64,000 nt of DNA, taken from positions 124,001 to 188,000 of the forward strand of contig JAGTXK010000087.1 of the NCBI GenBank assembly GCA_019096195.1. Direction: 5' to 3'. This document shows, piece after piece, positions 32,268 to 56,100 of the stretch (the stretch's first letter is position 1; every line of letters begins with the position of its first letter). This DNA comes from Boletus sp. NGJ (Eukaryota > Basidiomycota > Agaricomycetes > Boletales > Boletaceae). Both the position numbers and the translations under genes were made by a program. A model generated the notes under the pieces. That model had not been told where the DNA came from and ran no database searches. It saw only the letters and a program-made list of their open reading frames with translations.

Positions 32268-32279
32268 AGCTTTGGAATT
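32268..32279 (-). other. Self-priming type primer-binding site
   Basis: The 12 nt directly after the 5' LTR read AATTCCAAAGCT in element orientation. They are the exact reverse complement of AGCTTTGGAATT inside the LTR, at the predicted RNA start. No tRNA-like TGG primer site is seen. The Tf1/sushi lineage of chromoviruses primes with its own RNA 5' end, and this fits. Confidence 0.75.
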
Positions 32280-33222: not shown

Positions 33223-33224
33223 TA

Positions 33225-33440
33225 CAGTGGCTCAAAAAACTGTCCGCATGTTTGGTCATTTTTCACTAAACATGTTATTCCCCAATAACCCCTAACCCTT
33301 ACCCTAACATATAGGTGTATGAAATAAAGCACTGACCCTTGGCTTTCTATCCATCAAGGTTTTAAGACATATGAATAAGAATTGATGAACTGGCAGCCAT
33401 TTCAAAACAATGACTCATTCGGACAGTTTTTTGACTCTAA
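33225..33440 (+). repeat. Left TIR of the Tc1/mariner element
   Basis: About 216 bp, matching 34618-34833 inverted. The outer end has GCTCAAAAAACTGTCCG; the inner end carries almost the same word inverted (CGGACAGTTTTTTGACTC). A tract CCCTAACCCTTACCCTAA lies inside. Confidence 0.9.
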
Positions 33441-33586
33441 GTTTTGATTACATATATTGGACCCTAGCATGCTGTAATATGATTACATACATTTGGTAAG
33501 GCTTCTATTATGTCACCATTATGTAACTGAGTGTCAGACAACATATATAAACTCCATCATTCCATGTTTATTTTTCCACCATCACC

Positions 33587-34603: not shown

Positions 34604-34617
34604 ATACCTAGATAAAT

Positions 34618-34833
34618 TTAGAGTCAAAAAACTGTCCGAATGAGTCATTGTTTTGAAATGGCTGCCAGTTCATCAATTCTTATTCATATGTTTTAAAACC
34701 TTGATGGATAGAAAGCCAAGGGTCAGTGCTTTATTTCATACACCTATATGTTAGGGTAAGGGTTAGGGGTTATTGGGGAATAACACGTTTAGTGAGAAAT
34801 GACCAAACATGCGGACAGTTTTTTGAGCCACTG
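34618..34833 (-). repeat. Right TIR of the Tc1/mariner element
   Basis: Inverted copy of 33225-33440 with only a few differences by eye. Confidence 0.9.
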
Positions 34834-34849
34834 TATATATGTACTGACA

Positions 34850-36162
34850 TTTCCTCAGTTGATGCTATCATCTCCTTTGGCAATGGCTTGGCTGTTTCTT
34901 GGAATGGTCAGGTTCTCGGAATGATGCATATGGATGATGTCAACGTCATGGGCGACATTGGGGCTACACTCAATGTTCAGACTACCTTTGAAGTGGCAGA
35001 CATCAACATGCTCATGAGCTTTACCAAGGTGTTGCTTAATGAAGATTCTTTCCAATGGGAAATCTCTGGAGAGAATCTCACTGGTAAGAGTCAATTTGAT
35101 CGCAGACAAGTGGGCACTCATCCATTCGAATAGTTAGCACACTAGCTATGTCCTTCTGGAATGTGCAATATGAACCATCTTTCAACTTGGCATTGCAGGT
35201 GTTCAGGTTCCAGGGATTTCGCTGCCATCCAAGGTAGTTACTCTCAATGGATTTAATGGTTTGCAGAATGGGGTTACAATCAACTTGTTTGACTTACCCA
35301 CCAATGACCCCTTGGGCAGCATCCAATTGATAATCCAATCCACAGTGACAAACATGAGTAAATGCTAACCGTCAGTTACTTCTGCGGCGAACTTTAACAC
35401 ATCATAGCCTTCGCAAGTCGGCATTGAGTTGAGTTCCATCACTTTCAATACCTATGCTAGCGGAATCGAGATTGCCCCCATATCATCATCGTCGTCTGTT
35501 ATGCTCACTCCTTAGTCCACATTGACACTATCTCTTGCTGGTCGGCTCGTCCCACAGAACACTGCTGAAGGTTTGGCTGTTATATCAACGATCTTCAATA
35601 ACTTCATTCAGGGAAAGGATAGTCAAGTTACAGTCCAAGGAACAAGTGCTGGTCCAACTAATGTAAGATTGATAGCCACGCTTCTCTGCACGTTTCTGAG
35701 ATTCATCAAGATCACATGGCTCAATGAAGGGATACAAACCCTCCAAGTTGTGACTTCATTACCCAACCAGAGCAAACTCAATATTATTCAGTCAATTGCC
35801 TTGGAGCAAATGGAATTACTGTTCACAGAACCCACAGTATACGAGCCGATGTCAAGTAGTAGCATGACTACTGCTGCTTTCAGTCTCCCATTCGCTTTTC
35901 CCATTGATATCACGTTGTTGTCACAGAACATCACGGTTGGCTTCAATGGACAATCATTCACTGAGCTCGTCATTCCTGACACTCCAAGCACCACCAATGT
36001 ACAATCTTGCATCATCTACCTGACCTTTTCGGACATACCTTTTGCCATTTTCGCAGATCAGCATTTCATTTTTGATAACTTCATCACCACGACTACCCTC
36101 AGAAATGTGCAAACCCTTGCCTTATTGGAAGCTGCTAATGCAGCCACCTCCACTGCTGTGGG
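34850..36162 (+). pseudogene. DUF3712 repeat protein gene, 5' part
   Basis: Multi-exon host gene. Exons encode a DUF3712-type repeat: VLGMMHMDDVNVMGDIGATL, then after an intron at 35084-35198 VPGISLPSKVVTLNGFNG and FDLPTNDPLGSIQL, then VGIELSSITFNTY, LAGRLVPQNTAEG, ITWLNEGIQTLQVVTSLPNQ and FAFPIDITLLSQNITVGFNG. DUF3712 proteins are large fungal proteins of beta-rich repeats, probably membrane or vacuole/cell-surface linked; their function is unknown. The 5' start is not visible; a Tc1 element lies directly upstream. The gene is broken at 36162 by the KDZ element and resumes at 53145. In-frame stops between the clear blocks are partly introns and partly decay. Confidence 0.8.
36155..36162. repeat. 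8-bp target duplication, left copy
   Basis: GCTGTGGG precedes the element; the same 8 bp occur at 53137-53144 after it. They lie inside DUF3712 coding sequence, and the host reading (ending ANAATSTAVG) continues after the right copy with VLLLSDIEFSVD. This fixes the element boundaries to within one base. Confidence 0.85.
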
Positions 36163-36880
36163 CACTTCAGTCACCCTCCCAGGGGTACCTCATAGGTCCA
36201 TCTCTCCCACTAGAGGGTTGGACCTATGAGGTGCCTAGGATCAGGGAATTCCCAATAATATGGGCAACATGGATGATTAAGGGCCTTTATTAGAAAACAG
36301 GTTGGTTTTCCCAGAGCAGTTTCCAAAGGGAAACCCCAGTGCCCGAAAGGGAAAAGAGAATTCCCATTTTGACAGGGTGTTAGGGGTCCTGCTATGCTTT
36401 ATTGAAAATGTAATATGTCATAATTTAGAACTTGAAGGGATTTCTTGTACTAATAAAGAGGTCAATTATTCATTTGAAATCAAGATAAAAAGCCTTTTAT
36501 AGGACTCAGCAGAGATGGTGATTGTTCTCCACAGTAGAGAAAATAAGGGCAGGATACTAAGGAATAAATTTTTATCCTCTGCAAAGCATATGCTATGAAA
36601 TGAGATAGCTTGACTATTGAATTTAATGAGATTGGGGTTACTTACAAGATAGCAAAAGTTATTGAGAAATGAGGTTTTGTTCTCAAAGCATGTGCTATGA
36701 AATGGGGTAGCTTGACTGTTGGATTTGATGAGGATGGGGGGTACTTAGGACAGGCAAACTAGTAAGTGATACACTAAATATAATATACAGCTAAAGTTGT
36801 GTGATATGTAATGCATAGTAGGCTATGAAATGGGGTAGCTTGACTGTTGAATTTAATGAGGATGAAAGGAGGTGGGAATT
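36163..36880 (+). repeat. Left TIR of the KDZ element
   Basis: About 0.7 kb, matching the inverse of about 52425-53136 with small indels. Near its tip are two 13-bp arms, 36187-36199 and 36220-36232 (ACCTCATAGGTCC and its complement), able to form a hairpin with a 20-nt loop. AT-rich inner part. The inner end is uncertain by about 20 bp. Confidence 0.88.
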
Positions 36881-37185
36881 CCCCATTGTTTCTAGAGGTA
36901 GAGAGGAGAATTCCCAACAGCTCTGGGGAATTCCCCAAGACTCCTGGATGTAGAGAAGGGAATTCCCAATGCGTTAGGAATTCCCCAAGACTCCTGGATG
37001 TAGAGAAGGGAATTTCCAATGCCATTAGGAATTTCCCAATACTCCTGGATATAGAGAGGGGAATTCCTGGATTAGAGAAGGGAATTCCCCAGAGCTGTTG
37101 GGAATTCCCCAAGACTCCTGGATGTGGAGAGGGGAATTCCCAAGAGCTATTTGGAATTCCTAACAGCTTTGGAGAATTCCCACAA
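36870..37185. repeat. Left subterminal GGGAATTCCC array
   Basis: About 13 copies of the 10-bp palindrome GGGAATTCCC or one-mismatch forms at irregular spacing of 15-35 bp, partly embedded in a longer unit containing AAGACTCCTGGATGTAGAGA. Two further copies lie in the TIR. Arrays of short subterminal repeats are typical transposase-binding regions in large DNA transposons; binding here is inferred. Confidence 0.8.
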
Positions 37186-37331
37186 AGAACAACTAATAAT
37201 CATCCATCAGGAGACACAAAAAGGTGACAGTCATCATCACACATGCATAGGACTGCATCTCAACAAGGACAAGACAACATTATTCTCATCATTATTCACA
37301 GAAGGAGAATTACATTGACATCTAACAAAAC

Positions 37332-40300
37332 TTAGTCATAGTATGAGTTATAGTAGTGATGTCTGGTAGGTTCAGATAAATCATCATATTCATCAGCACT
37401 ACCCACATCAACATATTGGACACGAGATGGGCCTGCAACAGGAGAAGTATTTTGCAGTACATGGCTTCGTCTTTGATATGAAGGTGAACGAGAATGATAC
37501 ATTCCCTGTGAAGTGGGTGGTCTGGCAGGAGCTTGGTGCTGTGGAGGATCAAGGTGGCGAGAATGAACCACAGGTGCCTCAGTCGGAGGAATCCGAACGA
37601 GTAGGATGTGGAGGTTGAAAAGAGTTACTAGATGGGAGGAGACTTATAAGGTGATCAGTAATAATAAGTCAGAAAACACACTTACACTGGACGAGTGGTC
37701 TCATTGTAGCTGGTATCATAACATCAGCACTCACAAATCAAAAAAAGAGTTAAGATCTCACTCTATGTTTCTAAAGCCCTCAGATTGATAGTGGTTATTA
37801 CCCACAGAGCGCTCAGCTTGTCTAAACAGGTCTAAGTTGTCATCATATACATGAGATGACCACTAACTGTTGGGGTGGCATACAACGATGAAACCTCTCA
37901 TCTGCACGGGCATCAGGTCGTCTAGAGAACCATCAGTTGTGCATATGTAAGAATTACCATAACCACTTACACCTGTCGATGAGCATGCTGGGTGTGTGAT
38001 TCCTATAGAAAAATGAACATTGAAAGATGAAGGAGGGATCACATGATATACCTTAGATTGTGCCTCTAGCTTCATATGCTTTCGTATGGGGTCGCTCCGG
38101 AACAGACTCCTCTTCATCACGGTGATGCTTGCGTGATTGTACACGAGATTTTGAAGGGTGGATGGGAGGAGGTCCCATTTGATCATGGCGAGGCTGTTTG
38201 ACTTTACCCTTAGCCTTCTTACGAGCCACAAAAGCAGTATCTTCATGTGACGACACTGATGATGGCGAGGAGGACCACCTTGAGTCTGGCTCAGCAGGAA
38301 TGCTGACTTCACGAAGGTACATCCCGGAGGAACTTGTGGCACTGCCTGAGGATGCAAAGTGGTCGAGACTCCGTGTCTGTGATCAACGGTATAGTAAACA
38401 TTCTCGGGTCATTTTTCTCCACCCAATTACACCATTCTATAATGCAAAGTGAGCAACAGGTTAAACAAGCAAATTAAAAAATAAAACAGACCTGGTGTCC
38501 ATATACCAACTGACACCTCTACATCAGGAACTGTAAGTCGAGGCTGTTTGTTCTTCACATTAGCAAATCTTCTCCTGCCAGCATTAGGTACAATGTGGTG
38601 TGTATGGAGACTTGGCGAGTGTCGCTTAAGGTAAGGGTCAACAACTGCAATGAGTTCATCAACTTTTGCATCATGGGGGACCCATATGGGCGGGGCAGCA
38701 ACACCAGCAGGCCAGTTAGTAATGGTTAATTTGTAGCGATACAGGAGATCATCGAATGATTGCCATGGAATATTCTTGCCATCTGTGCAACCGAACTCCT
38801 CTGTGCTGTGTGAATATCATGATAAGAAATGTAAGAGAAAAACATACTGAGTTTTCTACCCATCATTATTGGCACAATACGTCGATTCCAATCACAGAAC
38901 CCCTCAGTTGGACCACGGTCTAATTCATCATCAGTGTTTGATCCATTACCCTCCATGTTTGCATGAGTATCAAACTCAGGGATTGGAACATTTGCAGATG
39001 GATCAATCTCCTTATATCTGAACAACTCCGTTAGAAACAAGAAATGAAGGACATTGTGGACATACTTGACAACTGTTGTGACGTAGTCCAACCACTTGGC
39101 CAGCTGGAGTTCATGGCTATTGATTAACTCCCTGACAAAGGTGGATCCACCAAACCACCCAGCCGCATGCCGGGCAGCTGCATTATGGCCTTTGTACACC
39201 ACTATGCCCATCACCTCTACACCATCCAGGCGACTCCAAGCAGAAGCCTACAACCAAAGATAATGAGCAGACACGTCATGACATAACAGCTGGCACATAC
39301 TCCTTTTGCAAACTGCTCTCGGGCTTCCTCAACTAATGCAGCAAGAGATTTTGTAGACATTTCCCATTCCTGAACAATAGCCTTTCCATGTTCTTGTATC
39401 TCCTCCCATATCTTGGCATATTCTTCGTCATCTCCATGAGCTTCGTAATGTTCTTTTTGTCGGAGGCGGTAATCTTTGACCCTCTCTGTTGGAAGGTCAA
39501 TGAGCTACACCACTGAAGAGCAATGCACTTACCACCCTCAGCAATCAGATGACTGAATGCATACCACTTTTGATGCAGATTCCACTGCTGCTCAGCTCGG
39601 GTCATTAGCTTCCTCAGGCCAGCTTCTTCAAGGATCTGCTTAACAGGCTTTCCATATTGCACCACCAATCATTTAAGATCCTTCATAATGTTGTCGCCAA
39701 GTTCATGAGCCTGTCGGCAAGCCTCATCAGGGAGTGGACCTGGACGATGGACCATTTTCCCTTTGCGTCATGACACACCACGGCATTGGTCCTCTTGCTC
39801 ACCCATGTCATCAGACTGATCAGAATCATGATCACGAATCACTTCTTCTTTGTCTGATTTAGGAAATTCCAATGGTCCATCATTGGCATCGGGGGATTGA
39901 GATTGAGCAACAGCATTCAAATCTGATTCCATGCGTGCAAGCCTGCGACGATGAAACATTACTGTCTGTTGCTTGACTCTTGAAACGTCCTTCGACGTCA
40001 CCTCCTCTGGCTGCTGTTCTTCCTCCAACTCATGCTGAACGTGTGGCTCCCAGTCATGATCGTGACCTGATTTACCTGTCAGTAGTGTCATTAGCATGAA
40101 CCACTGGGAGTCAGATCATATTTACTGTGGGGAAGCTCATCGTTGTCTATACCTTCTTCACTCGCCAGCATGTAGCGCTTCTTCTCCTGCTGTCTGAGAG
40201 TGATACCTGTTGCTTGTATGTGGTCAATACGCATAGTCTGTTGATAGGAATTAGGTATTACCTGTGGTGCATACCCTTGCAGGCCCATTATCGGCGGCAT

Positions 40301-40750
40301 GATGATACGTCTGGGTGTTTCCAAGGAGCACTTGAGTACCTTGTGTCTCACTGGTCTGATTACCTGCCAGCTGACTGTCGACCTCATTTGGCTGGCTGCC
40401 ATTTTCCTCATCCTCACGTTCTCTCTCAGGAGAGCGAACTCCCGGCATTGCTCTATCGATGGGAGCACCCTGGAACTTCTCATCATCTGAATCGTGACAG
40501 TCTGAAGAGACTTGGCATCCTATCTGTGGTATCGGTGAATGTGTGGCATCATTGGGGGTACCGTCAACCTTCTAGTGTGTTAACTTCAGTGAGGTCATAT
40601 GATTGTCTGTCACCTACAGGTGCTGCTCCCATCTGGATGGCAAGCATTGTTAGTTTTGCGATTCGGACTGTCATTCTTATCACGTACCTTAATCTGCTTT
40701 TTAGTCCAAGTATATTTCCTGCGCTGATAGCACCAATTAACGACAATGGA
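37332..40750 (-). pseudogene. KDZ cargo gene A, unknown function
   Basis: Multi-exon minus-strand gene of a hypothetical family that I associate with agaricomycete transposons. N-terminal exons near 40090-40750 are polar; 39768-40097 is acidic and coiled-coil-like. The core reads KMVHRPGPLPDEACRQAHEL, VQYGKPVKQILEEAGL and QQWNLHQKWYAFSHLIAEGG (39500-39740), then VVYKGHNAAARHAAGWFGGS and ELINSHELQLAKWLDYVTT (39050-39215), then DLLYRYKLTITNWPAGVAAP (38680-38745). A basic and acidic disordered tail follows (38053-38322), and the C-terminus is YYNSYYD at 37332-37571. In-frame TGA codons near 39775 and 39670 suggest decay, though exon borders are uncertain. No catalytic motif recognised. Confidence 0.55.
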
Positions 40751-41716
40751 GTGACAATATAAATGAAAATGTACCATCAGCTGTATATATTTGTGTGCTG
40801 TTTTTGCACAGCGAGACGGTTAGCCACTTGGAGCAGGTGGTGATGGTGACATTGTATGGTAGAATTCTCAGTCTAATAGATACAAGATGTGTAGAGCAGT
40901 GATGCTCGGGACACGCAGTCTCAGCAAAGAGTGCCTTGACCCATAGTCAAAGAACAAAAGCGCAAGACACACAGTCTGCTGCAATGCAAGGTGGACACAA
41001 AGTCACACCAAAAAGAAGGAATGTGAAACTAGTTGAATCTATTCAGCCGCCTCAGGATATAAGTCCTATGCAAAGTCAGCCCAATGGCAATGGAATGGAA
41101 AGAAGGTTTACACACGGCCCAAAGTGACCCTGTCCTCCTGACGGCAATCCACTCATGACACACTGCTTATGATGGAAACAATCCATTTGTCCTGAATAAG
41201 AATAGAAAATGAGCGGTATCTATGCAGGCAACAAGATTAAGGCCCGAAACATAAAACCAAACCAGGTTAATTTAGGTAGACTAATAGGTGCCACATGAAT
41301 GTGGTGGGGGAGTATTTGTTACTGTGGGATCATGTAAATTATCTCAGTATGATGTTGAATCACAACAATGTACTCATCTGGAACACCGATCACATTGCAC
41401 AGGAAGGAGTTGGAAAGGCTGAAACGTGCAGTTAGGACAATCATTGATGGGAAAAAAAGAAGCCCACTCACCAAGCAATAGGTTACAGTGTCGGCGAGAT
41501 TGGAGCTAGGATTGGCTCACAACATTTGATGCGAGAAGAGCTGGGAGACAAAATTATCAGAGATTGAAAGATGGTTGTGCTAGGATTACTTATGCAGAGC
41601 GGTCGGAAAAACCATTTGTTCTTGCCGCATTGATACTGCTCTCTTGTTGTGTAGGTTCCTTGAAAGTCTGTGCTGCCGCTGCTCCCTGGAGGCTCTCCAT
41701 TAATGCAGGATGTATA
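40751..41716. other. Leader region of cargo gene A
   Basis: No gene firmly supported. It lies between the central inverted repeat and the first clear exons of cargo gene A, so it probably contains its 5' leader and introns. A short minus-strand frame near 41590-41775 (MESLQGAAAAQTF from about 41702) could be the first coding exon. Confidence 0.35.
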
Positions 41717-42061
41717 GAGTATGAGTATGAGTACGACTTTTGAGACTGAATATACTCACATTTGCAGTAGAGCATTCTCGGGAATGCAGAAACGCTTTGA
41801 GTGGAGCTCAGTGTACAAAGTGAGGAATGAGCAAGAGAAAGGAAGATTGAGTGAATACTTACAAAAGGAGAGGAGAGGAGTTGCAGGAGATGTGTTCAGA
41901 ATGTGAAGAGATACACCCTCAAAATGGTCTTCAACCCCGTTGGTGATACTTCTGTGAAAACGGTGGCACCAGGGCAACCGTAAGGATGCAAAGTCCTAAG
42001 GGTGCTTCAGCTCAGAGACGCGTAGTCAACTGAGTGAAGATTCAAAAGGCACGAAGCCAAT
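41717..42061 (-). repeat. Central inverted repeat, left arm
   Basis: 345 bp, inverse of 44841-45185, roughly 95 percent identical by eye. Both arms encode, facing outward, the same 73-residue frame (MPWCHRFHRSITN..ENALLQM here, 41756-41977) and carry the same donor-like GTAAGTATTCACTC and GTGAGTATATTCAG words. The arms therefore look like duplicated 5' leaders of the two divergent cargo genes. Confidence 0.85.
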
Positions 42062-42115
42062 CGAGCATTGATGGTTGAGGAGTATACAGTGGATGGTAAA
42101 GAAAATGCAGTGGCA

Positions 42116-42120
42116 GTTGC
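42116..42120. repeat. 5-bp target duplication, left copy
   Basis: GTTGC, repeated at 44684-44688 on the other side of the small LTR element. Confidence 0.85.
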
Positions 42121-42290
42121 TGTGGGAAGACTGTAGTCTTCAGTGTAGTCACTGTGTATTAGTAGTAAGGTAGTAGATACCTGTAGTCTTCAGTGTAGTC
42201 ACTGAAGAGACTGAGCTACTGTACGAAGGTTCTAAGTACCGTGATTATGTAACGTGTGGCTGTACCACCGTATCGTATGAAACTCCAACA
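42121..42290 (-). repeat. 3' LTR of the small LTR element
   Basis: 170 bp. It is about 50 bp longer than the other LTR because a block containing CTGTAGTCTTCAGTGTAGTC is duplicated inside it. Confidence 0.85.
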
Positions 42291-42623
42291 CTCCCCCTCA
42301 AACGAGACGGGGTAGTCAAGTGGGAATAGTAGAAAATGTAAAGAATAAATCTACCTGGAAAGTCTTCTAATAGAAGAATGATAATCCGTATGGATGCAGC
42401 ATCTGCGCAGGTCCGTATGTGGTCCGTATGTGAGTCGCGTCACACTGCGCTCGAGCGGTGCCCAAATAAGGCAAGTCGCGGCTCGCAGTCGCTAGTGGGT
42501 GCGCGGTCGTCTTCGATCGACTCTAGTGGCGTCGTCTTCGTGTCTCGCGCCTTCGGATCCTTTCCTCGGCCTCTGTACACCATATGCAACATGTATGGTT
42601 GCTCCGGGACGCCCGATATGGCC

Positions 42624-44546
42624 TCAATGCGACTGTCCGTCTGGGTGAGTCGGTCTTCTCGATCCGAGTGAGATTGACCTTGGTAGGATGCGATTTTGAT
42701 CGTCCTCGATGACGCGGTGTGTCTGCAGGCTCGGTAGGTCGTTTAGTACGCTTGGGATGTGGGTTTGGTGGCCCAGGTGCGTCCGTCGCCTTGCGCTTCG
42801 CTGTCCGTGCTGACTCACTTCGTGGTCAGCTAGCACATCCGTTTCGACTCGTTTCGAGCCGCGGCGTGCTGTGCTCGTTGCGCCGGCCTTTCCGCCTCGT
42901 ATCCCATGCGTTAGGACTCCATTGCGAACGCTTTGGCGTCGCGTTTCGTCCTTATCGCCTCCCGAATCGACCTTCTCGTCCTTTTGGCCTCCTGGACCTG
43001 TAACTCGACATAGCGTGTTCGTTTCGACGACGCGCTCGCTCCCGACGCTCCTGGGATCTATCCCATTGCCTTCGGCGCTGTCGACAACCCTTTGGCGGTC
43101 CGGATTGGCCTCGACGACCTCCGACTCGACCCTTTCGCCCAAATCACCTCCTGGCCCTATATGTCGACGTAGCGCGTTCGTTTCGACGACGCGCTGCTCT
43201 CCGTCGCTTGTGGGACCTTCAGGGATGTAGTGGGGACCTTCAGGTACGTGCGCGTTACCTCCCGGGTCGTGTACGGCGCGTTTCGCCCTTGTGTGCGTAC
43301 CAGGTGAGTTCGACCTCTTCCTGTCGACGCGCTTGGGTTCTGACGCTATTCGCAGCTTTCTCAGCTGGTTCGTGACCTCGTCAATGGCTTCAGAAGGTTC
43401 TGGTGCACCCGTTTCAGGTGCGGCATCGCAGCTCGCTAATATCGACCACTCCCCCTCGAGCTCGACACTCGGGGGTTCATTTCGACTCGCGGTTTCGTCT
43501 GGTGGTGTGGGTGGTACAGGGGATGTGAGTGAGGGCTCAGATACGTCATGTCCTGCCGTTCGCCTCGTTTCCTCGCTGCGCTGATCGCCTTCGTCAGCTA
43601 TCCTCTCCCCCTCGATCTGCGCTCCGTGCGCTTCCTCTGCGATGATGCGATGCTGCCGTGCTGTTCGCGCGCTGTTGCCTTCGCCGTGCGCATTAGCGCC
43701 GTGTCGTCGGTCTGCGCACGTGCCGTTCATGTGCACTGGCGTCTCGTCAGTGGAATTGGGGGTCTGTGCTCCACCTGGCTCGATCTGGGTGCCCGCGCGG
43801 TCTCTCGACTTGGCGCGTGGTTGTCGGTTGTGGTCGTGCGATGCGCTCCGTGCGCTCGCGCTGGTCGTTCGAGCCCCCTCGTCGACCTCTCTACCCTCCT
43901 CGCCCGCCGTCTGGGCGACCTCGACCTCTTCCCCAGCTCGGTGCCCGGCTTGTTCATCGAGCGGCGTGTCTGGTGGGTCTGGTGAGCTGTCCGCTGCCGC
44001 TATGGGCCTAGCGCGCTCCGCGTTTGGGTTTGTGGTGTCAGCGGTCTGGTCGTCGGCCTGCTGACTTCCCGGTGGGGGTTCCTGGGGCTGGACTGACGTG
44101 CGACAGATCTCCGTGTCCTCGCTGTTGTCGTCTTGGCTGCTTGCCGGGGTTGTGACACTTCCGCCTGCAGTTGTTTCGGCCGTGGTCGCTGTGCCCGGTC
44201 CTCTCGCTGTGGCTGCGTCTTCATCAACTCTCCCGCGCGTGCTTCCGCCATTGTTGCTCTCCGTTGTGACCCTTGTAAGACATTTTCTGACTTGTAGTTG
44301 CCATTGTCGAAGGCAAAATCGTTCGAGCTCGTTGTTAGGCTGTCGATTATCCTTGATGACCGCTAGAACTGTAGCGTAGTCGGTCGTAGGTGTAGCGTTC
44401 CGAGCTTCCCGCGCTGCGCAAATTAATTTCACGCGGTAGTCAGGCCAGCTATGACCATTGGTGCTTGAGACTTCAATTTTTAAGCCGTCTTCAAGTTCGA
44501 CTTCGAATTCGGGCATCCCAAGGAGTGACTTGGGCTTTCTAAGCAC
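42624..44546 (-). CDS. 640-aa gag-like ORF of the small LTR element
   Basis: Uninterrupted frame of 640 codons in a GC-rich tract very unlike the AT-rich surroundings. The first about 110 residues look folded (MPEFEVELEDGLKIEVSS, NGHSWPDYRVKLICAAREA, LERFCLRQWQLQVRKCL); the NGxSWxDYRxKL pattern resembles the start of copia gag, a weak match. The rest is disordered, rich in Glu, Arg, Thr and Pro. It contains three diverged copies of a unit with ERVVETNxLxRxxGPGG about 50 residues apart. There is no zinc knuckle. A gag-only protein is the best guess; an unrelated captured gene is possible. Confidence 0.6.
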   Translation of the reverse strand: MLRKPKSLLGMPEFEVELEDGLKIEVSSTNGHSWPDYRVKLICAAREARNATPTTDYATVLAVIKDNRQPNNELERFCLRQWQLQVRKCLTRVTTESNNGGSTRGRVDEDAATARGPGTATTAETTAGGSVTTPASSQDDNSEDTEICRTSVQPQEPPPGSQQADDQTADTTNPNAERARPIAAADSSPDPPDTPLDEQAGHRAGEEVEVAQTAGEEGREVDEGARTTSASARSASHDHNRQPRAKSRDRAGTQIEPGGAQTPNSTDETPVHMNGTCADRRHGANAHGEGNSARTARQHRIIAEEAHGAQIEGERIADEGDQRSEETRRTAGHDVSEPSLTSPVPPTPPDETASRNEPPSVELEGEWSILASCDAAPETGAPEPSEAIDEVTNQLRKLRIASEPKRVDRKRSNSPGTHTRAKRAVHDPGGNAHVPEGPHYIPEGPTSDGEQRVVETNALRRHIGPGGDLGERVESEVVEANPDRQRVVDSAEGNGIDPRSVGSERVVETNTLCRVTGPGGQKDEKVDSGGDKDETRRQSVRNGVLTHGIRGGKAGATSTARRGSKRVETDVLADHEVSQHGQRSARRRTHLGHQTHIPSVLNDLPSLQTHRVIEDDQNRILPRSISLGSRRPTHPDGQSH

Positions 44547-44563
44547 AAGCAGGGCTCATAACC

Positions 44564-44683
44564 TGTGGGAAGACTGTAGTCTTCAGTGTAGTCACTGAAG
44601 AGACTGAGCTACGGTACGAAGGTTCTAAGTACCGTGATTATGTAACGTGTGGCTGTACCACCGTATCGTATGAAACTCCAACA
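44564..44683 (-). repeat. 5' LTR of the small LTR element
   Basis: 120 bp, TG..CA ends in both directions of reading, matching 42121-42290 apart from the block duplicated there. Confidence 0.85.
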
Positions 44684-44719
44684 GTTGCAACAAGTGCAAA
44701 CAGGGAAGCGTGGGAGAAC

Positions 44720-44726
44720 TATAAAA
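44720..44726 (+). promoter_or_regulatory. TATA box in the central spacer
   Basis: TATAAAA lies in the short spacer (about 211 bp without the LTR insertion) between the arms of the central inverted repeat, pointing toward cargo gene B. A GGGAATTCCC palindrome lies about 30 bp downstream. Consistent with a divergent promoter core. Confidence 0.45.
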
Positions 44727-44840
44727 CATCCGAAAGACTGGGAATTCCCACAACGATTTTATGTCTAGCAAGACCACTTCTTCCTTCACGCTTCTTACTC
44801 CACACTTCTGCAAGAACCCTTCAAGATCATCTGGATTGTG

Positions 44841-45185
44841 ATTGGCTTTGTGCCTTTCGAATCTTCACTCAGTTGACTATGCGTCTCTGAGCTGAAGCAC
44901 CCTTAGGACTTCACATCCTTATGGTTGCCCCGGTGCCACCGTTTTCACAGAAGTATCACCAACCGGGTTGAAGACCGTTTTGAGGGTGTATCTCTTCACA
45001 TTCTGAACACGTCTCCTGCAACTCCTCTCCTCTCCTTTTGTAAGTATTCACTCAATCTTCCTTTCTCTTGCTTATTCCTCACTTTGTACACTGAGCTCCA
45101 CTCAAAGTGTTTCTACATTCCTGAGAATGCTCTACTGCAAATGTGAGTATATTCAGTCTCAAAAGTCGTACTCATACTCATACTC
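44841..45185 (+). repeat. Central inverted repeat, right arm
   Basis: 345 bp, inverse of 41717-42061. It carries the plus-strand 73-residue frame 44925-45146 (MPRCHRFHRSITN..ENALLQM). Between the arms, the original spacer has been enlarged by the LTR element. Confidence 0.85.
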
Positions 45186-45399
45186 CATTTCAACATTGTG
45201 CAGTCTTCCAGTTTCAGGTACTGTTCAGTGAGTTGATCCCTCACAAACCCCAATCCACATGTCTCACAGCATCTGTTTCTTTAAGTCATGCATTGCATAT
45301 TCAAACTTGGGATATGATATATCATAGTCCATTATCAGTACGCATTCCACTCATCCTTTTCTTCATGTTGTCAGTTTGTTCACACATGATTTGCAGGCC

Positions 45400-47606
45400 A
45401 TGTTCCCTCGTCGCGAATTCAAGCCCTACTGCCGACCAGGTCAAGGTAAGCCATGTCTGATATATAGACAAGAGGGCTGAGCTAAGATCATTTGAAGAAC
45501 ACATTCGTGAATTCGACGCCAACGTCATTGCATATTGCGACCCATACGTGATAACATCCCCAAATGCTGACTGGATTCCGGAACCTCACTGTTTTGAAAA
45601 CGAAGAACTGCGTGCTCGTGCAGATGGATGTTTCGGGTACCAAGACTGTTTCCAGTGGCCACAACCTTACAGCGAGAAGTTTGAATACGCTGTTTGCACC
45701 CCGAATCTGCTGAAAGCCAAAGCTCTCGAAGACCCATCAAAGACGCTCTGGGAGTTTTGGACACCCTCTGAAGATGATTTTGAGCTCATTGATCCACAAT
45801 CTCCATTCCGCGTCGGCAAACTCAACTGCGATGTGTACTACCATCTCTATCGGCTGTATAACCTAGGTCAAGTGAGCATCAATGATTGGAAGGCGAAGCG
45901 GGAGGGAAAGAAAGACATAGTCACTGGCATGCAGCTTCATGGCCGACATCTCCTCAACATACTTAAACACCATCTGTTGACCTTTCCCGACGTTGTCCTC
46001 TACATTGCAGAACTCCAGCGCTATCTACTCGACGTTGCCACCCATATGTGCTATGTCAATCACCATCAGTTCGCTCTCACATATCCCGATTTCCCCAAAC
46101 CCACCAACAACCTATTGATGGGGTGTTTCACGAAAGATGTCACCACTTGTGAGCGGCTCTGGCATGCTGGCATTCCTGTCTGGCTTGTCTGTTTCCCGCA
46201 ATTCGTCCCACAAAATATTAACATCGTCAATGTTGTCTCCGTCACACGCCCCGACCACATCATACAAAAAAATTTCATGCACAACACAATCGTTACTGTC
46301 TACCCAATGCTACATCTTGGTCCTGGGGGTACTGACTGACATTTGAACACATGGCGCACCTTCCGTGCCCAACTCATCGAGCCTCCTGCTACCACTCCTT
46401 CCAACATTGTTCCTCAGCAAGGCCTGGTAGCCTCCTCATCACAAGGCACATCAGGTGGCTGGGTCCAAGGAAAGAAAAAAAATAATGTGCGTAACGTTGT
46501 TCAGCAACAAATGTATTCCTCAGCCGGTATGTTTCTATCTCCATCACAACAAAATGTGTTCTGATGCGGCATTACCCTACTTCCCATAGCATTATGCAAC
46601 AGAGCCCACAACCCAAAGAGTGGTCGAGACAAATGGACGGAGCTCAACGCCACCAATATGCCACTAGCATTCCCCCAATGGGTCACTGTATTCAAATGGG
46701 TGGACAAGAATCCCACCAGGATCAGGAGCGGAATGGTGGATGCTGGCTATCATTTCCCTGAGCCTGCACTTCTCATTACACCTTCATCACCTCAGCAATG
46801 GAAATTGTTCTGCACCAACTGGCTAGCTGCTTGCCCACTTTGGATCAGTCATATTGAGCACAACCCTCTGAGCCCACTTCCTGCACCTCAGACTTGGCGG
46901 GACTTCCTCAACTCTATTCCATCAAACATTGTGGCTGAGAATATAATGACCAGATCAGTGCAGGAGAAGCTAGCTGCTAAGATGCTTTTTGGAGATACCC
47001 TTATGCATCTGCAGGGAGAGACCTGGGCTGGGCGGACTCTGTGCTGTGGCAGAACCAGACAATTGTGATCACAACACTCGAAGACCTGCCCACTCATTTG
47101 ATTTGTTCCATTCTATGGGAGATCTATGAGCTCAGCTTCCGCTATGAGCTGTTGGCCCTGGATTGCGCAATGGTTCTGCAAGGTTGTGGGTAGAGGCACC
47201 TGAAGAGAGGATCGAATTATTACACAGCATCTTTTCAGGGGAGTCAGGGCTTGTGATGTGGGAGGAGTCAATGCCGACAACGGAGCAAGGGATGTGGGCC
47301 TCGCCAGACATTGCCTATCCTTTCCTGGAGAGCTGGCGGAAGTTGCTGTTGTCATGGCCTCAGGCTCTGTCTCGCTTGCAATCGCCAATCGTGCAGGAGT
47401 CCTTCACATCTGTTGTGCAATTCGACGTGCTGATGAGTGCATGTATGTTTTACACTCAAACCTTCTTCAATGTGTTTGGTAGGCCTCCAGTTGTCTCGCA
47501 CCGCATCCCTACATATGTGATGAGTTCCATGTTGGAATTTTTTATATATGTCAATGCCGTCAACATTCCTGTCTCCCTTCTACCCTGTGTACACTGGTTT
47601 GATTAA
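45400..47606 (+). pseudogene. KDZ cargo gene B, unknown function
   Basis: Plus-strand gene of a hypothetical family very common in KDZ-rich agaricomycete genomes. ATG at 45400 (MFPRREFKPY). The main block 45480-46339 reads SKTLWEFWTPSEDDFELIDP, KKDIVTGMQLHGRHLLNILK, HHQFALTYPDFPKPTNNLLM and CERLWHAGIPVWLVCFPQF, ending at HLGPGG. Further blocks: GWVQGKKKNNVRNVVQQQMY (46460-46520), LAFPQWVTVFKWVDKNPTRI and WRDFLNSIPSNIVAENIM (46660-47000), and GESGLVMWEESMP to GRPPVVSHRIP (47235-47510). Breaks between blocks are partly introns; a few frame changes (near 45470, 46339 and 47170) may be decay. The role is unknown; its place next to the transposase suggests an element-borne helper. Confidence 0.65.
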
Positions 47607-47849
47607 TGCATAACAGTTTTGCTTTTATTATTATTGAGTGATGCCGACATGCTAACACTAACTTTGTGCACTCAGGGTTCTATAGCACAGAGACAGTCCC
47701 TTTCTTTGATGCTTTCTCCTCTTTCCTTTGCATACTGGGACTACATGTCTCTGTGTACTGACTTTGTGTCAAATACACCTCTGCCTGTTGACTACATGTC
47801 TCTGGCCTATCTTTGACTTCATGTCAAGGTATTCTTCGTCTCGATGACT

Positions 47850-50800
47850 ATTCATCATCCTCATCTTTGTGTGTCTCACTCCTTATCTCCAGTAAAATCA
47901 TCTGGTGGTGGCAACCCTACTCATTCCACCCTTCCAGCACACATGGATCAGTCATACAACAGTTGGTGCATCGTCCACTCAATATACTTTGTGTCAGCCA
48001 GACCTTCTTCAAGAAGTCCCGCTTTCATGATTCCAACCTTCATTGTCTTTGTCATGCCCCACCATATCTTGTACTACCTGGTCATCAACACCTCTCACAA
48101 GGTGTTTTGAATGACCATCATCCATGCTCTCCCGTCCATGATTCCACAGATCACACTCAGGACAGCAATACATTCATTGATACCGTTCAGATTTTTGGCA
48201 ACCTTCCGCCTGTTCGAACATCTGCATCTCAGAAATAACAGAATCAATACCATCGGTGGTCGCAAGATGTCATCCCAGCCATCCTAAAGCCCTATATGCA
48301 ATATGTCCGTGTGACTACGTCACTTTCCACCTCTGCAACTGTAGATGCCGTCCATGTCCCACCATGTGATGGAGTCTCATGTCTTCTCTAGACAATTAGA
48401 GGTAACATGCTTGTATTTTGATCGTGAGTCGCTTTGTATCTTCTTGGTGATATGCTTTATGAATATTCAACCAGGCCTTGAAATCATTACATTGTCCATT
48501 TGCTCATGTCGCCCAGCGCCCCTACAACTTGTGGCTCTTGGCCTCTTTGGTTGTGCACCAGTGTCGCCTTCCCTTGCTGTCAATTTCCATGTACTGGAGT
48601 TGGTGAAGGTGTTGTTTGTCCACATGACACCCAACATGTCTGGGTGGACAGAGGCATTGGAGAGCTTCTTGAATGACTGTGGGTTTAAATTAGCAACAAA
48701 TGTATGTTGTTTTTTTAAGTGCAACAACAATTCAGCTCAATTTTGCCTAGGATAATCTCAGGTGGGCACTTCAGTACTGCCTATCACTGGTACCTTATCC
48801 TTACAATTGTGGTGGCAGAACATGTATCCAATCTTCTCTGTTGTCAATCACCTGCTCTTGATTCTGAGGATCGGAATATGTCTGACAGTGAAAACCCACA
48901 ACCCAGTGAATATCTGAGGACACAGTGTCCATTGTGCTTTGGAGGGAAGGGTTGGAGATGCAATTGTGATAGAAACAATGAGTATGTTTCAATTTCATTC
49001 ATAGTACAACTTGCTTATGAATGTTTAGCATTGATCTAATTGTTTGTATTGATGCCTGCTTCACCCAGAAACGTTCATGCAGTGCTTGCAATGATGTCAC
49101 TGAGGATCCGCCGAATCCTACTCAGACTATTTTCATATCTGAATGTGATGTCAAAGCCATGGAAACCCGTGTTGAGGAGCATCATGATGTGAATGCAGGT
49201 CGGAAGAGATTGCGAATGCAGTCTGCAAAGGGAGATGGGTATGAGAATGGCATGAAGATTCCGATGTCTGTTCTCAATGCTTGTGGAGACTCATTTGTTG
49301 CTGCTGATGAGAAATGCTGAGAAGGCCAGCACACACTATTTTGCTGACACTGGGCTTATGGCAATGCTTTGCCGCCATGACCGTGTGCTATGGCTTGTCA
49401 ACATGACTTCTGCGGGAGAAAAACAACATTACGCCCTCACACTCATCCAGCGCCTCTTTGATCACCTTCCTTCGGACATGTTGGTGGGATTACTCTATGA
49501 TATTGGCTGTCAGCTGGAATGGAGTTGCTGGAAATGGGGATTTTTGTCGGAGGCGATTCTCTCCCACCTTACCTTTGCCATCACTGTGTTTCATGCATAT
49601 GGCCATCAGTGGGCATGTCAAGTCGTTTATCACCCTTGGAAGTGTGTCGGTTTCGGCCTCTCAGATGGAGAAGGATGTGAGCGCTTGTGGAGTTTCCTGA
49701 AACCCCTCATCCCTGTGCTTTGAGTATCTGGGGTCAGTTTAATTATTGTCTCAAGGTCTTCCTCACCACTAACTAATGTCCCTTTGCAGTTTCATCAACA
49801 GCTTTTTGTGCTAGACTCTCAGGTTCGCCACCTGCATGTCAAGTCCCTTGTATGTTTCGGTGATTGGTTGCACCAGCGGTGGATGCATTGTCAGAAGAAA
49901 ATGGCTGCAGCTTCTGAGGCACTTGCATTACTGGAGATTGAGGAATCTGTCCTTCGAGATCAATGGGCAGCCCAGGTTGCTCATCAAACAGCACCTCTAG
50001 TTCGTATGTTGTTCTTACATTCTTCTGTCATATGTTCTTATCTAACTATATGTCATTGTCTGTGCTGCAGGACAGGCAAAGAACAAGGCTGAGGAGGAGA
50101 TAACCAGGGTTCTCGCACTAGAGAAGACCTTAGAGCATCAACAGATCATTATCAATGATCTGGAGCACCAGCTTGCCATGGACAACAGTGGTGATGTCAT
50201 TGACTTAAATATTTGCCTGGTTGAAGCAAGACAAAAGCTGTTGATGACTGCTGCCCTTGTTAAAAAGCGCTGGGCGGCTTTAAGTGTATCTGATCGTGCC
50301 AACCTTGCTGCACTCAAGCATAATGTATATTTACAGGTAAGTGTAAGTAAATTGCAAATCATGTAGGGACTGATTGGGTTTGGTGCCAGGTATGTATGAA
50401 TGCTCATGGATTGAAAACTCGCATATGGGAGAGGCTTCGTCAACACAAGTTTGAGCTTGAACGATTGGAGCGTGCCTACCGCACCACAGTGAATGGTATG
50501 TCTGTGCTATTCACCTTTGGATACTGAAGCTTAATATGCTCTTCATGATGTAGAGAACCGACTACAGGGCAATGTTCAAGCAGCTATCAAGTGACATGAA
50601 CCAACCATCCTCAAGCTTGTCAGCAATTATAATACTCTTTGCAAACAGCTGTCAACACTCATTGATGGTGGCACAGCACCTTCTGGGGCAGTTGTCCCTC
50701 CTAGTATATCTCGTGAGGGTATATTTCAGCTGGATGTTGATGATGACATATGGCAAGACATAGGTCTTGATGATGCCATTACTGATCCACCACTTTGGCT

Positions 50801-52141
50801 TGCTAATGAAAATGTGTATACTGGTATTCGCCATCTGCTAGAACATGACCAGTGTGTGGAGGAAGAAGCTAGAGTTTGCCATGAATGTTATATTCTTCAG
50901 GAATGGATGATTTTGGAGTGGAACAATCTCCAGAAAGCAAAAGATAAAGCAGGTGAGTTGTTTACTGCTTTTAATATCTTAAGAATATTCTTATATCTAA
51001 CATATTCTAGATGTGGATGAACTATATCAGTTAGATTTGCATGAGGTTGAATTATGTAGGCTATGTGTCCAGTGGGAGACTGTTAAGAACAGGGCAACTC
51101 CAATGAAACTCTGAAGGACCAGAGTTACTTGAGGGTGTCGGGACTTGGCTTCACCTTATGTGGTGCGCCCTTGCTCGAGTCCAATGTCCCGGATTTCGAG
51201 GATGTAGGAGGATCAGAGGTTTGGACTCGACGTAGTCGAACGTCAAGTCGAGCAGAGGGTTGGAGTGAGTCGTCGAGACTCAGACAGGAGACAGGAGGAG
51301 TGTTCAGAGTTGATATTCGAACTGACTTTACAGGAGTAGTACTGAGGGTTTATATACGATCGGAACGAAGGTATTAGTAACGGAGTTCGTAAGGTGTAAT
51401 GAGTAACTGGACATGGAGATGGGACCTCGCCAGAGCAGTGCTCCTAAGCGAGACAGACACTGGGTCAGAGACAACTATAAGGCAGGGACCTGGACGGATG
51501 AAGAAGCATAGGTTATGTACAAAAGGAGAAGTATGAATACTATAGTGAGGGTGTTACAAGTCTGAGGGTATGAGGACGTACTCCGAGGGAGAACGTGCCG
51601 GAGTTATGGACAGAGTGCCGGAGTTGGACTTGTTGAATTACACGGGATATGACAGAGACACAAGTTCGTCACATACCTTGTGCTTGGGCTATACCAGATA
51701 GCTGGGGGCCCTCAAGTATCACCCTTGGCCACACTGCACTTGCCATGCATCAACCACAGAGTGCCCATGGTAAGTACAAACTTCTGATTGTTATTGGATT
51801 ACATGCTCAGTATATCCCTGTTGGATAGTTTCTCATCATACAGAAGTAAAGTTTTTTGCCTGTGAGGTTGATGGTTCATGCTCATTTTATTGCAAAATAT
51901 CAGCCTAGTGTGGATGAAGTGGAGGAAAGAGAGCTGACTAAGGGAGGAGGAGGAGGAGGGAGAGAGAGGAGGAAATATTGGTGATGATGAATTGATGGCA
52001 GAAGCTGAGGATGCTGCATTAGCCTATAAGTATCAACTTGATGGGCAAGATGATGACCTGGATGATGATATGTTCTCTGAGTCCCCTAGTACCATAGATG
52101 ATGATGTTTGTACTTTGCCTTCTAAGAGGCTGAAAATCTGA
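47850..52141 (+). pseudogene. KDZ transposase (CxC1-like N-terminus)
   Basis: Multi-exon transposase. N-terminal part near 48130-48700: RWSQDVIPAILKPYMQYV, QLEVTCLYFD, then after an intron ICSCRPAPLQLVALGLFGCA. Catalytic core: VCIDACFTQKR (49050), ADTGLMAMLCRHDRVLWLVN (49340), LLYDIGCQLEWSCWKWG (49500), FHAYGHQW and SDGEGCERLWSFLKPLIPVL (49660-49720); the two Asp and the Glu of these motifs are the expected metal ligands. C-terminal coiled-coil exons run to about 51110, with an acidic tail ending SKRLKI at 52141. Disabled by TAA at 48236, a one-base insertion near 49310, TGA at 49721 and TGA at 50592 (both at expected CGA codons), and foreign sequence at about 51113-51673. The start is uncertain. 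Confidence 0.85.
51113..51673 (+). repeat. Candidate solo LTR inside the transposase
   Basis: About 540-560 bp interrupts transposase coding between CVQWETVK and IPCAWAIPDSWGPS. A span 51136-51673 has TG..CA ends and a TATATA box near 51350, as a solo LTR would. No matching target duplication was found and no second copy exists in the window, so this could also be another insertion type. Confidence 0.4.
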
Positions 52142-52199
52142 ACATACTTTGCTTTTCATCCAGTCTTGTTATTGCAATTCTTTAGTCCCAGCTCCATCT

Positions 52200-52440
52200 T
52201 CAGTAGCATTTGAGAATTCCCTCTGCCATCTCCAGTAATCATGGGGAATTCCCAAAGGTAGTTGGGAATTCCCTCTGCCATTACTAGTAAGCATAGGGAA
52301 TTCCCAACTGCCTTTGGGAATTCCCTGCATTTCTAGTAATCACAGGGAATTCCCATCTCCACATCCAGTAATCATGGGGAATTCCCTCTACCATCTGCAG
52401 TAATCATGGAGAATTCCCAATGGCTTTGGGGAATTCCCAC
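52200..52440. repeat. Right subterminal GGGAATTCCC array
   Basis: About nine copies of GGGAATTCCC or near forms, separated by words such as CTCTGCCATCTCCAGTAATC. Three more copies lie in the right TIR. The spacers differ from those in the left array, so only the palindrome itself is shared. Confidence 0.8.
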
Positions 52441-53136
52441 CTCCCCCATCCTTATCAAATTCAACAGTCAAGCTACCCCATTTCATAGCCTACTATGCAT
52501 TACATATCACACAACTTTAGCTGTTTATTATATTTAGTGTATCACTTACTAGTTTGCCTGTCCTAAGTACCCCCCATCCTCATCAAATTCAACAGTCAAG
52601 CTACCCCATTTCATAGCACATGCTTTGAGAACAAAACCTCATTTCTCAATAACTTTTGCTATCTTGTAAGTAACCCCAATCTCATTAAATTCAATAGTCA
52701 AGCTATCTCATTTCATAGCATATGCTTTGCAGAGGATAAAAATTTATTCCTTAGTATCCTGCCCTTATTTTCTCTACTGTGGAGAACAATCACCATCTCT
52801 GCTGAGTCCTATAAAAGGCTTTTTATCTTGAATAATTGACCTCTTTATTAGTACAAGAAATCCCTTCAAGTTCTAAATTATGACATATTACATTTTCAAT
52901 AAAGCATAGCAGGACCCCTAACACCCTGTCAATATGGGAATTCTCTTTTCCTTTCAGGCACTGGGAATTCCCTTTGGAAACTACTCTGGGAAAACCAACC
53001 TGTTTTCTAATAAAGGCCCTTAATCATTCATGTTGCCCATATTATTGGGAATTCCCTGATCCTAGACACCTCATAGGTCCAACCCTCTAGTGGGAGAGAT
53101 GGACCTATGAGGTACCCCTGGGAGGGTGACTGAAGT
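52425..53136 (-). repeat. Right TIR of the KDZ element
   Basis: Inverse of the left TIR, including the subterminal hairpin (arms 53068-53080 and 53101-53113). Confidence 0.88.
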
Positions 53137-53144
53137 GCTGTGGG

Positions 53145-56100
53145 GGTCTTGTTGCTATCAGACATTGAATTCTCTGTTGATTCTTCCATTGCCAGTATGC
53201 AGGGTCTCGTGGCTAAACCAGCCACTATGGCCAATCTGGATGTCAATCATGGGTATTCCGATTACCTTCTGATCACAGTCGACACCACTCTCTACAACCC
53301 CAGATGAGCAGTTATTGTGCTATCCAATGTTCTGCATTGACAGTGCCGTCGTCTAGCAATCTAACAATCGGTAACATTTCACAGGTCTTTTCAAGTAAAT
53401 CACTTACCCTATCTTTAGGCATGGGAGACATTTCTTTCACTTTGCAATTTGAGTGAGTGCATTCAACTCCTTAGTTCTGGATCTTGGTTAACCATACACT
53501 CAGAGACCAGACAATTGGATCTGCTGATTTGGTGAGGGCATTAGATCTGCGTTTATGTCAGTCGTCTTGAACCCCTCATGCAGAGTAACATGGTCATACA
53601 GCCTGGTTCTGTTAATTACCCAACTAGTAAGAATATTCTACAAGATAAAGTCTTCTACACTCATGGATACTGCCACACTAGATGTCCTGTATTCACTGCA
53701 AGGTGGTCCTCAGACCGCAGCGGGCCAGACGATGTTGGAGAACTATCTTCAAGGGATCGATTCTGGCACGGTTATCTTTGGCACAACCAGTTCTACTCCG
53801 ATTGGATCTTTACAGCTTGTGTTATCACAAATCAAACTCACCCCTGTCAACATTCCTGCATTGCAACAGAACCTCATCAATACTACTACTCTGGAATTTC
53901 CAACCAACATCGTGCAGACAGGAGTTGCATCTACTTCCTTCACTCTTGCAAATCCCTTTATAGCAAGCATTAACCTGCTTGAAGTCACAGCTACAGCAAC
54001 CTTCCAGAATTTGACTGTTGGTACTATCAATAATGTTGATCTATCTTCAAATCCAATCCACACGGGCGGTCACAGCAATATTACATCCCCAGCTCTTCCA
54101 TTCAATTTCAACCTAGATCTGTTGACAATCATTGAGTTGATTACCATTTCAGCACAAGAGCACAATGTGGATATTGGTCCTTTGACACAGTTATTCCAAC
54201 TGATTATTGATAACCCTAACTTTCGCCCACCTGTGTGCATCTTGAATTATAGTTTTATGCACAGCGATGTTTACTGGTCGCCTTAGGTTCACACTTCTGT
54301 CGATACTAGTGCCCCAACTTGCATTAGATGAGTAACAACATGTAACACTGGAGTATACTCATGTTTTCTGTGCAGCAGGAACCAGTTCGATTTCAACAAT
54401 GCTATCCTCAATGCCTTGAAAGGCCTCCAAGTTAATCTGGAAATTGTCTCCTCATTGAAATTGGACAATTGTAGGCTATTTGTTCGCTTGTCTCTTCGGA
54501 TTCTCATGCTTCACTTCAGATGCAATGAGTCTGTCTTTCTTGCAGAAAGGAGTGACAGTGATCGTAAGAGCAATAATCCTTCTGGATAACATATCCATAT
54601 CTAACCCTGATGTTCTCCAGACTGACCAGACTGTTCTATATCTTATCAGAGCCGTTGCTGCACCATTAGTACAAGATCTGGTGAATGGCGCTGTTCTTGT
54701 TTTCTCTGTGGCCACCATCACGTACATCTCATTTCCATGGCTAGTTATATGTTTGCTTATCACTGCATAGGAACATCTTGAACAGTGGTTTTAACCTGGC
54801 TCTCCAGAGCTCCTTGACAAACACCGGGCCATTTGATGTGTTGATTGAATTTGTTGATCCGGTCACATATGTGGAGTATATCTGCTGCAAGTACATGACT
54901 TATGGCCACTTCAGCATAAATTGGCAAGGCCATGATATTGCAACCATTTCGCTTCCCCCAAGTGAGCTGAGTTACACTTGTTCCTCCTCTGACTCCACTC
55001 AAACCTGATTTATAGTCTATGCTGCAGCCAACACTGGCGATCCAAATTCTACCATGCAAGGAACACTGGCCATCACCAACCAGATACAGTATGTCACTTT
55101 GTAGTGCATGCACTCATCATGCTGAACTTTCTTTTGCAGATTCACCTTGTTTGCCACCTACTTGCTGTAATAATATGGGAAATTTTCAAACTTTTCAAAC
55201 GCTTGCTTACTTTTCAATTTCCTCAACTCTTTTCTTCATAAGTCACGTGACTGTGCACGTGACCGTGGAAACATATCACATGATAGGTCTAGAACCTATG
55301 ACATCATATGACATCATACCTCATGTGATCCACGACCTTTTAATTTCCGCTCTTCTCACACAGCCCTATTAATCTCTGTCTTACCATACGTAGTAATTTA
55401 TCACACGCACAGTTTGGTCCGTGCGTACTCTCATCATGTATATAAACTAGCACTTAGACGACTGGTATCCCCAGTCTAATCCACTTGTATCTTCCTCCAA
55501 TAACCTATTAGCTTCGGCCATTGGTCGTCGTAGGGTTAGGAATATCCAGGACTAAGACTCTCCCACCTGATTCGTTCAGCCAGGACTCGTGTAGCCTGCA
55601 AAGTAGTTCCGAGCCTTGTGGTTTGTTTTCCGAAAGGGATTCATAACACTTGCTCCACAGCCCAAGTTTTGACTGGACCATCTCTATGTCTAACCTTCAG
55701 GTGACTGCTCTTGGCACGATCTTTGACAACGTGTCCTTAACGAAGACTATCACATTGAAAGCCTTAACAACTTGCCTGGAGTGACCATCAGCAATTTCCA
55801 GCTTCCATCCAATGATCCAGCGGGAGGTATCATGATTAGCACTGATTCACTTATCTCATCACCTGCTCGTATGTTCTGTGGTAATGGCTTTCTGTTCTTC
55901 TCTTGACAACCTCTCACAGAGCTCGGTATTGATTTTGGCACTGTCATATTTCAAGCGTACTTTGACAATATCCTGGTTGGACATGAGCTTTTATATTTTC
56001 CGGACTTTATACACCACCTTAGGAGAGATTGTTCTTTAGCATTGACTGCCACAGGCCTCATATTGCCTCCCAATGGACAAGTAAAATCACATCTCGTGGG

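Follow-up and report, generated by a model that had tools for sequence, protein, structure and literature searches.

A KDZ-superfamily transposon with long terminal inverted repeats and a 7-bp target-site duplication in a DUF3712-type gene

Introduction

Complete, and even mobile, transposons of the KDZ superfamily are already known. In Cryptococcus neoformans, KDZ1, KDZ2 and KDZ3 are described as complete, mobile elements of ~9-11 kb with true terminal inverted repeats (TIRs) of 139-241 bp, a KDZ plus CxC1 transposase, and target-site duplications of 8 bp in KDZ1 and 4-8 bp in KDZ2 and KDZ3 (PMC12810828). For two TET+ Kyakuja families of Laccaria, the published description gives a 7-bp duplication, CA..TG termini, a TET/JBP gene and no TIRs (PMC12730594, section 3.2.1), and the same source attributes true TIRs, a KDZ transposase and an 8-bp duplication to Zisupton.

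Here we describe an unusually well-delimited further case in a 64,000-bp stretch of fungal DNA (the window), which corresponds to positions 124,001 to 188,000 of contig C3 in a 32.8-Mb assembly of 141 contigs. We hold with high confidence that the window carries a KDZ-superfamily DNA transposon with CAC..GTG ends, inserted through a 7-bp staggered cut in a DUF3712-type gene, and this confidence derives from the ends, the duplication and the homology rather than from any measure of selection. The original prediction, a KDZ transposon inside a DUF3712-type gene with its target duplication preserved, is supported in this respect. Its further assertion that such elements are seldom delimited is weaker, given that published KDZ elements already include complete ones with TIRs and duplications (PMC12810828, PMC12730594).

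The element has the features of the KDZ superfamily, namely a PF18758 domain, an upstream CxC1 cluster and a short cut-and-paste-type duplication. Like KDZ1, KDZ2 and KDZ3 as described, it combines a KDZ plus CxC1 transposase with true TIRs and a short duplication. However, its TIRs of ~711-723 bp and its ~13.8-kb core differ from the 139-241 bp and ~9-11 kb of these elements; set beside them, it has two accessory genes besides the transposase, and it is known here from sequence alone, whereas KDZ1-3 are experimentally mobile. Kyakuja and Zisupton were compared through published descriptions of duplications, termini and TIRs. The window element shares the 7-bp duplication and CA..TG termini with the TET+ Kyakuja families, but differs from the two Laccaria families described in having ~0.71-0.72-kb TIRs and no TET_JBP match. 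With Zisupton it shares true TIRs and a KDZ transposase (PMC12730594), and it differs from the 8-bp duplication given for Zisupton in that source by having one of 7 bp. In the parts of the KDZ literature searched, we found no description of a 7-bp duplication combined with ~0.7-kb TIRs. For a KDZ family with TIRs, the locus provides a reference placed to the base, in a fungus that by its genes is probably an Agaricomycete: the duplication length is corrected, the core is parted from nested insertions and candidate transposase-binding sites are indicated.

Element ends and target-site duplication

The element spans positions 36163-53137 of the window on the forward strand (16,975 bp), its tips reading CACTTCAG...CTGAAGTG, and it is flanked by the 7-bp duplication CTGTGGG at 36156-36162 and 53138-53144. 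A genome search with the 101-base tip returned 42 rows: 22 of them are strong ends, and in the 20 weaker ones the tip's own internal inverted repeat was matched in the opposite direction. CACTTCAG starts 20 of the 22 family ends, and other copies sharing the TIR tips, for which a search had been proposed, do occur; the remaining two ends start with TGCTTCAG and CATTTCAG. Outside the tips, most of the sites differ from one another in sequence.

The duplication had been claimed as an 8-mer, GCTGTGGG, at 36155-36162 and 53137-53144, and these letters are indeed found at both positions. The longest direct repeat that the two ends share is nevertheless 9 bp, TGCTGTGGG, owing to the chance TG at the close of the right tip, and the direct repeat alone therefore cannot fix the duplication length. 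This length follows instead from the sister copies: the right tip is CTGAAGTG, terminal G included, in all five copies whose two ends share a contig, and the second complete copy, on C109, has an exact 7-bp duplication (TCCCATC/TCCCATC) followed by a mismatch at the eighth base (left T, right G). The target duplication is thus 7 bp and the right end is 53137, the extra G being the element's own last base. Judged against the other copies, the claimed left end at 36163 holds, while the right end shifts one base beyond the claimed 53136. An 8-bp duplication of GCTGTGGG, with the end at 53136 and asymmetric tips, appears extremely unlikely. Eight bases do agree between both sides of the element, and 8-bp duplications are attributed to Zisupton and one Dileera family (PMC12730594), but the eighth base in C109 contradicts this reading, the terminal G in 5/5 paired copies counts against it, and an eighth match arises from that G whenever the base preceding the 7-mer is also G.

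Among the five paired copies, the exact 7-bp duplication is present in two, a third (C74, AATTAAA/AATTGAA) matches at 6/7 bases, and the two rearranged copies on C81 and C103 have no target duplication at their ends. Flanks of unpaired ends were compared for 21 of the 22 ends, omitting L015 with its diverged tip, and the one 6/7 near-match (C107/C98) was not counted, being within chance.

The TIRs lie at 36163-36885 on the forward strand and 52427-53137 on the reverse strand, where the tip again reads CACTTCAG. As claimed, they are long, at ~0.71-0.72 kb, with 96.5% identity over 723 columns (36163-36885 against 53137-52427), and they are 89-99.9% alike across 11 aligned family ends. TIR divergence was rejected as a means of dating, because the two TIRs of a DNA transposon may differ from the outset. 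The predicted subterminal arrays are likewise present as GGGAATTCCC palindromes at 36874-37183 and 52212-52440. All 17 occurrences in the window fall within the element, 16 of them in the two end regions (7 left, 9 right) and one in the interior, and the genome holds 130 against 7 for the reversed control word. The core of this word, GGAATTCC, is also clustered near the ends in C109, C103 and C81, and more loosely in C74. These palindromes are likely to be transposase-binding sites, a putative role suggested by their sequence and position.

Two LTR-type insertions contribute ~3.1 kb, so that the claimed length of 17 kb applies to the full span and not to a simple element, the core being ~13.8 kb. 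The first is a nested LTR-type element at 42121-44683 (LTRs at 42121-42290 and 44564-44683, TG..CA, 5-bp duplication GTTGC), which is absent by alignment in C109, C103, C74 and C119; its empty site was read letter by letter in C109 and C103. A CpG observed/expected ratio of 1.19 is consistent with its late arrival. The second is a solo LTR at 51081-51654 (TG..CA, 5-bp duplication GAGAC), which C103 has and both C81 arms, C112, C36 and C41 lack; the site in C109 and C74 is occupied by other sequence.

Interrupted host gene

The left part of the DUF3712-type gene lies at 34834-36162 on the forward strand and resumes at 32628-33224 across a 1.6-kb insertion, and the gene continues in the same frame after joining at 53138-53304, also on the forward strand. 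When the element and one 7-mer are removed, the joined flanks form an uninterrupted open frame of 269 aa. Pfam DUF3712 matches occur on both sides (C3:159183-159362, 179739-179873 and 180668-180946, the latter two at 55739-55873 and 56668-56946 of the window), and the profile across the junction itself is weak (E 0.12, below cut-off). The claim that the flanks read as one protein is borne out by this frame, with the junction match remaining weak.

The left half of the gene has a counterpart on C103 (94.4% identity across 1329 bases), which ends precisely where the element is inserted, while the single genome match to the right half is the window itself. No empty allele of the DUF3712-type site is present in this assembly, where the right half is found once, and the empty site with a single 8-mer that had been proposed for the host genome is accordingly absent from it. 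The 1.6-kb insertion within the gene (33225-34833) has ~225-bp inverted ends between TA repeats, and C103 carries this gene with the site empty; judging by structure, we take the insertion to be Tc1/mariner-like. The homology of the left part to C103 gives way at the start of a 7.1-kb repeat. This repeat is found at 25529-32627 and 1-5416 of the window, also on C112 and partly on C119.

We infer catalysis, binding and the order of events at this site from sequence. A DDE-type transposase would bind the element ends, with the GGGAATTCCC palindromes as likely binding sites and the ~0.7-kb inverted repeats bearing the tips, and would excise the element at CAC..GTG. The excised element would then be inserted at a 7-bp staggered cut, and gap filling at the DUF3712-type gene would leave CTGTGGG on either side. 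Afterwards, the LTR-type element and the solo LTR would have landed inside the KDZ element, and CpG decay would have begun.

Transposase and accessory genes

The multi-exon transposase gene is located at 48345-52141 on the forward strand, its 3' limit being set from the sequence and the coordinates of the original prediction. The proposed HMM check identified KDZ (PF18758) at 49256-49723 (1.3e-44, 152.9 bits, cut-off 26.6), within a KDZ core at 49021-49723, as well as CxC1 at 48345-48755 (4.5e-7, 30.4 bits, cut-off 26.9). The CxC2 profile on this transposase was below cut-off, and a spliced model of the C103 copy scored 24.4 for CxC1, just under the cut-off of 26.9. Candidate D, D and E residues, which we presume to have a catalytic-type role, occur in IDACFTQKR, YDIGCQ and GEGCERLW, respectively; the first candidate D is lost in the C74 copy.

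Read in frame with the KDZ core, a TGA stands at 49721-49723, and the solo LTR also lies inside the gene. The same TGA letters are present in four of the seven aligned copies with sequence there (C3, C81a, C81b and C112) and absent from C109, C103 and C74. The window transposase is likely broken by this TGA, although the triplet might instead fall just within an intron, and the window copy would by its sequence now be non-autonomous. Codon-level comparison of the window copy with C74, C103 and C109 in the coding frame gave no sign of purifying selection on the transposase exons. For the KDZ exon, pN/pS was 0.80 (C74) and 1.12 (C109), the comparison with C103 containing no synonymous change, and two further exons gave 1.39, 0.85 and 0.57, and 1.62, 0.54 and 2.19 (C74, C103 and C109 in each case). 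Such values fit decay after insertion and lend no support to a working enzyme.

Where the original prediction named two cargo genes, we find two accessory genes. G1 is a multi-exon gene at 37332-39605 on the reverse strand (exon limits approximate; it may reach ~40.6 kb), and G2 lies at 45461-47606 on the forward strand, with a first open frame at 45461-46339. Between these divergent genes is a 349-bp inverted repeat (arms at 41714-42062, forward, and 44840-45188, reverse; 96%) that is possibly a duplicated promoter. Neither gene matched a Pfam family above cut-off, and comparison of the first G2 frame with PDB gave no match. Within the genome, G1 has 12 matching rows on eight contigs (C3, C109, C74, C103, C59, C36, C101 and C119), of which seven also carry a family tip somewhere and C101 has an adjoining G2 match in place of one. 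G2 is found within the element family, and eight further contigs carry distant relatives with 33-50% aa identity. Since both genes recur in sister copies, they are components of the family, with presumed roles in the element, rather than private cargo. A constant partnership of G2 with KDZ outside the family was considered and rejected, as no constant link was seen on the eight contigs with distant relatives; a KDZ match lies ~3 kb away on at least one of these (C42) and a Plavaka-type match ~3 kb away on at least one (C71).

The pN/pS values of the first G2 frame were 0.42 (C74), 0.34 (C103) and 0.30 (C109), and those of a second G2 stretch 0.37, 1.01 and 1.37, respectively. In G1, the exon at 38848-39247 gave 0.49 (C74), 0.09 (C103) and 0.28 (C109), the exon at 38492-38800 gave 0.32 (C74) with no synonymous change against C103 or C109, and the region at 37332-37643 gave 0.96 (C74) with at most one change against C103 or C109. 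Between these copies, the codon comparison points to selection on G2 and on part of G1; for the transposase it gives no such sign.

Sister copies and rearrangement

The element belongs to a small family in this genome, and the identity of the window copy to its sisters is a mosaic. The C3 and C109 copies differ at none of the first 500 bases, at 16/429 in the next bin, at 0.2-0.8% per bin at 37.2-39.7 kb and at 1.4-11% thereafter. Positions 37163-39663 are at least 99% identical among C3, C109 and C103 in each 500-base bin and much of the rest is several per cent different, a pattern suggestive of recent exchange or gene conversion.

Flanking sequences also recur on opposite element ends. The left host flank, found beside the left element end in C3, stands beside the right end on C103 (L007, L003; 5.6% different). 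A second flank (95.7% over 752 bp; 4.3% different) lies next to the left end on C119 but next to the right end on C112 (L016, L018). C81:57563-67142 (L037-L038) consists of two right half-elements arranged as a palindrome, with inverted flanks that are 96.9% identical, and the C127 and C59 ends (L001, L004) share a flank that is 100% identical over 1500 bases, with different element interiors. Any one of TIR recombination, alternative transposition and misassembly can account for the opposite-end flanks and the C81 palindrome. Two haplotypes are a less likely cause of the flank pairs, since the assembly contains three RPB2-type loci, which suggests that it is haploid or collapsed.

We give somewhat less than even weight to assembly errors at near-identical inverted repeats as the source of the shared flanks (C3/C103, C119/C112) and the C81 palindrome. 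The close similarity of the ~0.7-kb TIRs among the 11 aligned ends favours such errors, as do the identical C127/C59 flanks and a 100-N gap at C81:56351-56450, though this gap lies ~1.1 kb outside the palindromic element and not at its centre. However, the divergence of the opposite-end pairs means that neither is one locus assembled twice, and the RPB2-type count likewise argues against misassembly. The same flanks and the mosaic structure would favour an origin of the window locus itself by TIR-TIR or inter-copy recombination, with flanks brought together secondarily and matching 7-mers that are fortuitous. We regard this origin as very unlikely, since the exact 7-mer is accompanied by a reading frame that runs unbroken through the join and C109 has the same duplication length. 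Insertion through a 7-bp staggered cut remains our reading of the window locus. A more speculative and rather doubtful proposal is that this family forms a KDZ subgroup of its own, marked by 7-bp duplications and exceptionally long TIRs, and that these TIRs act as hot spots of inversion and exchange. If this is true, a host flank can join either element end, half-element palindromes form, and the family actively reshapes the surrounding genome.

CpG decay and TET-linked elements

Family copies decay mainly by CpG-to-TpG change, and the older copies have decayed by mutations of the DNA-methylation type. In the 44.7-51.1 kb segment, C3 and C103 are separated by 173 transitions and 8 transversions. 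Single-copy changes, counted in multi-copy alignments of the family, affected 41/585 CpG positions in C3 (CpG-to-TpG/CpA) against 23/5016 other G or C (C-to-T), and 23/584 against 16/5006 in C109; C103 ran against the trend, with 6/586 against 23/5015. CpG observed/expected ratios were 0.07-0.22 in the old copies C74 and C119 and 0.40-0.58 in C3, C109 and C103. Of the CpG cytosines common to the latter three, 44-46% are altered in C74 and C119, compared with 2-12% in other contexts. We treat this as ordinary methyl-cytosine decay, because hypermutation is stated as not detected in Agaricomycotina (Kojima, PMC12730594, section 4.2) and CpG-type decay is described in basidiomycete transposons (PMC4352252). 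The genome has five rows of methyltransferase-type matches.

The same genome also holds TET-linked KDZ elements, including copies on C133 (L052-L054), and with both sorts of KDZ in one genome the proposed TET protection from methylation-driven decay is testable there. The KDZ sequences of three TET-linked copies are only 32-43% identical to the window KDZ core over 42-74 aa. CpG observed/expected ratios of 0.27-0.39 and ~10 transitions per transversion were found for three TET-linked copies. Low CpG and an excess of transitions are found in both TET-linked and window-family KDZ, which gives no support for TET protection in a sample of three copies each, far too small to decide. None of the 23 PF12851 rows places a TET/JBP gene in the window element, and the closest TET_JBP match on the same contig is at C3:112358-112798, 47 kb away.
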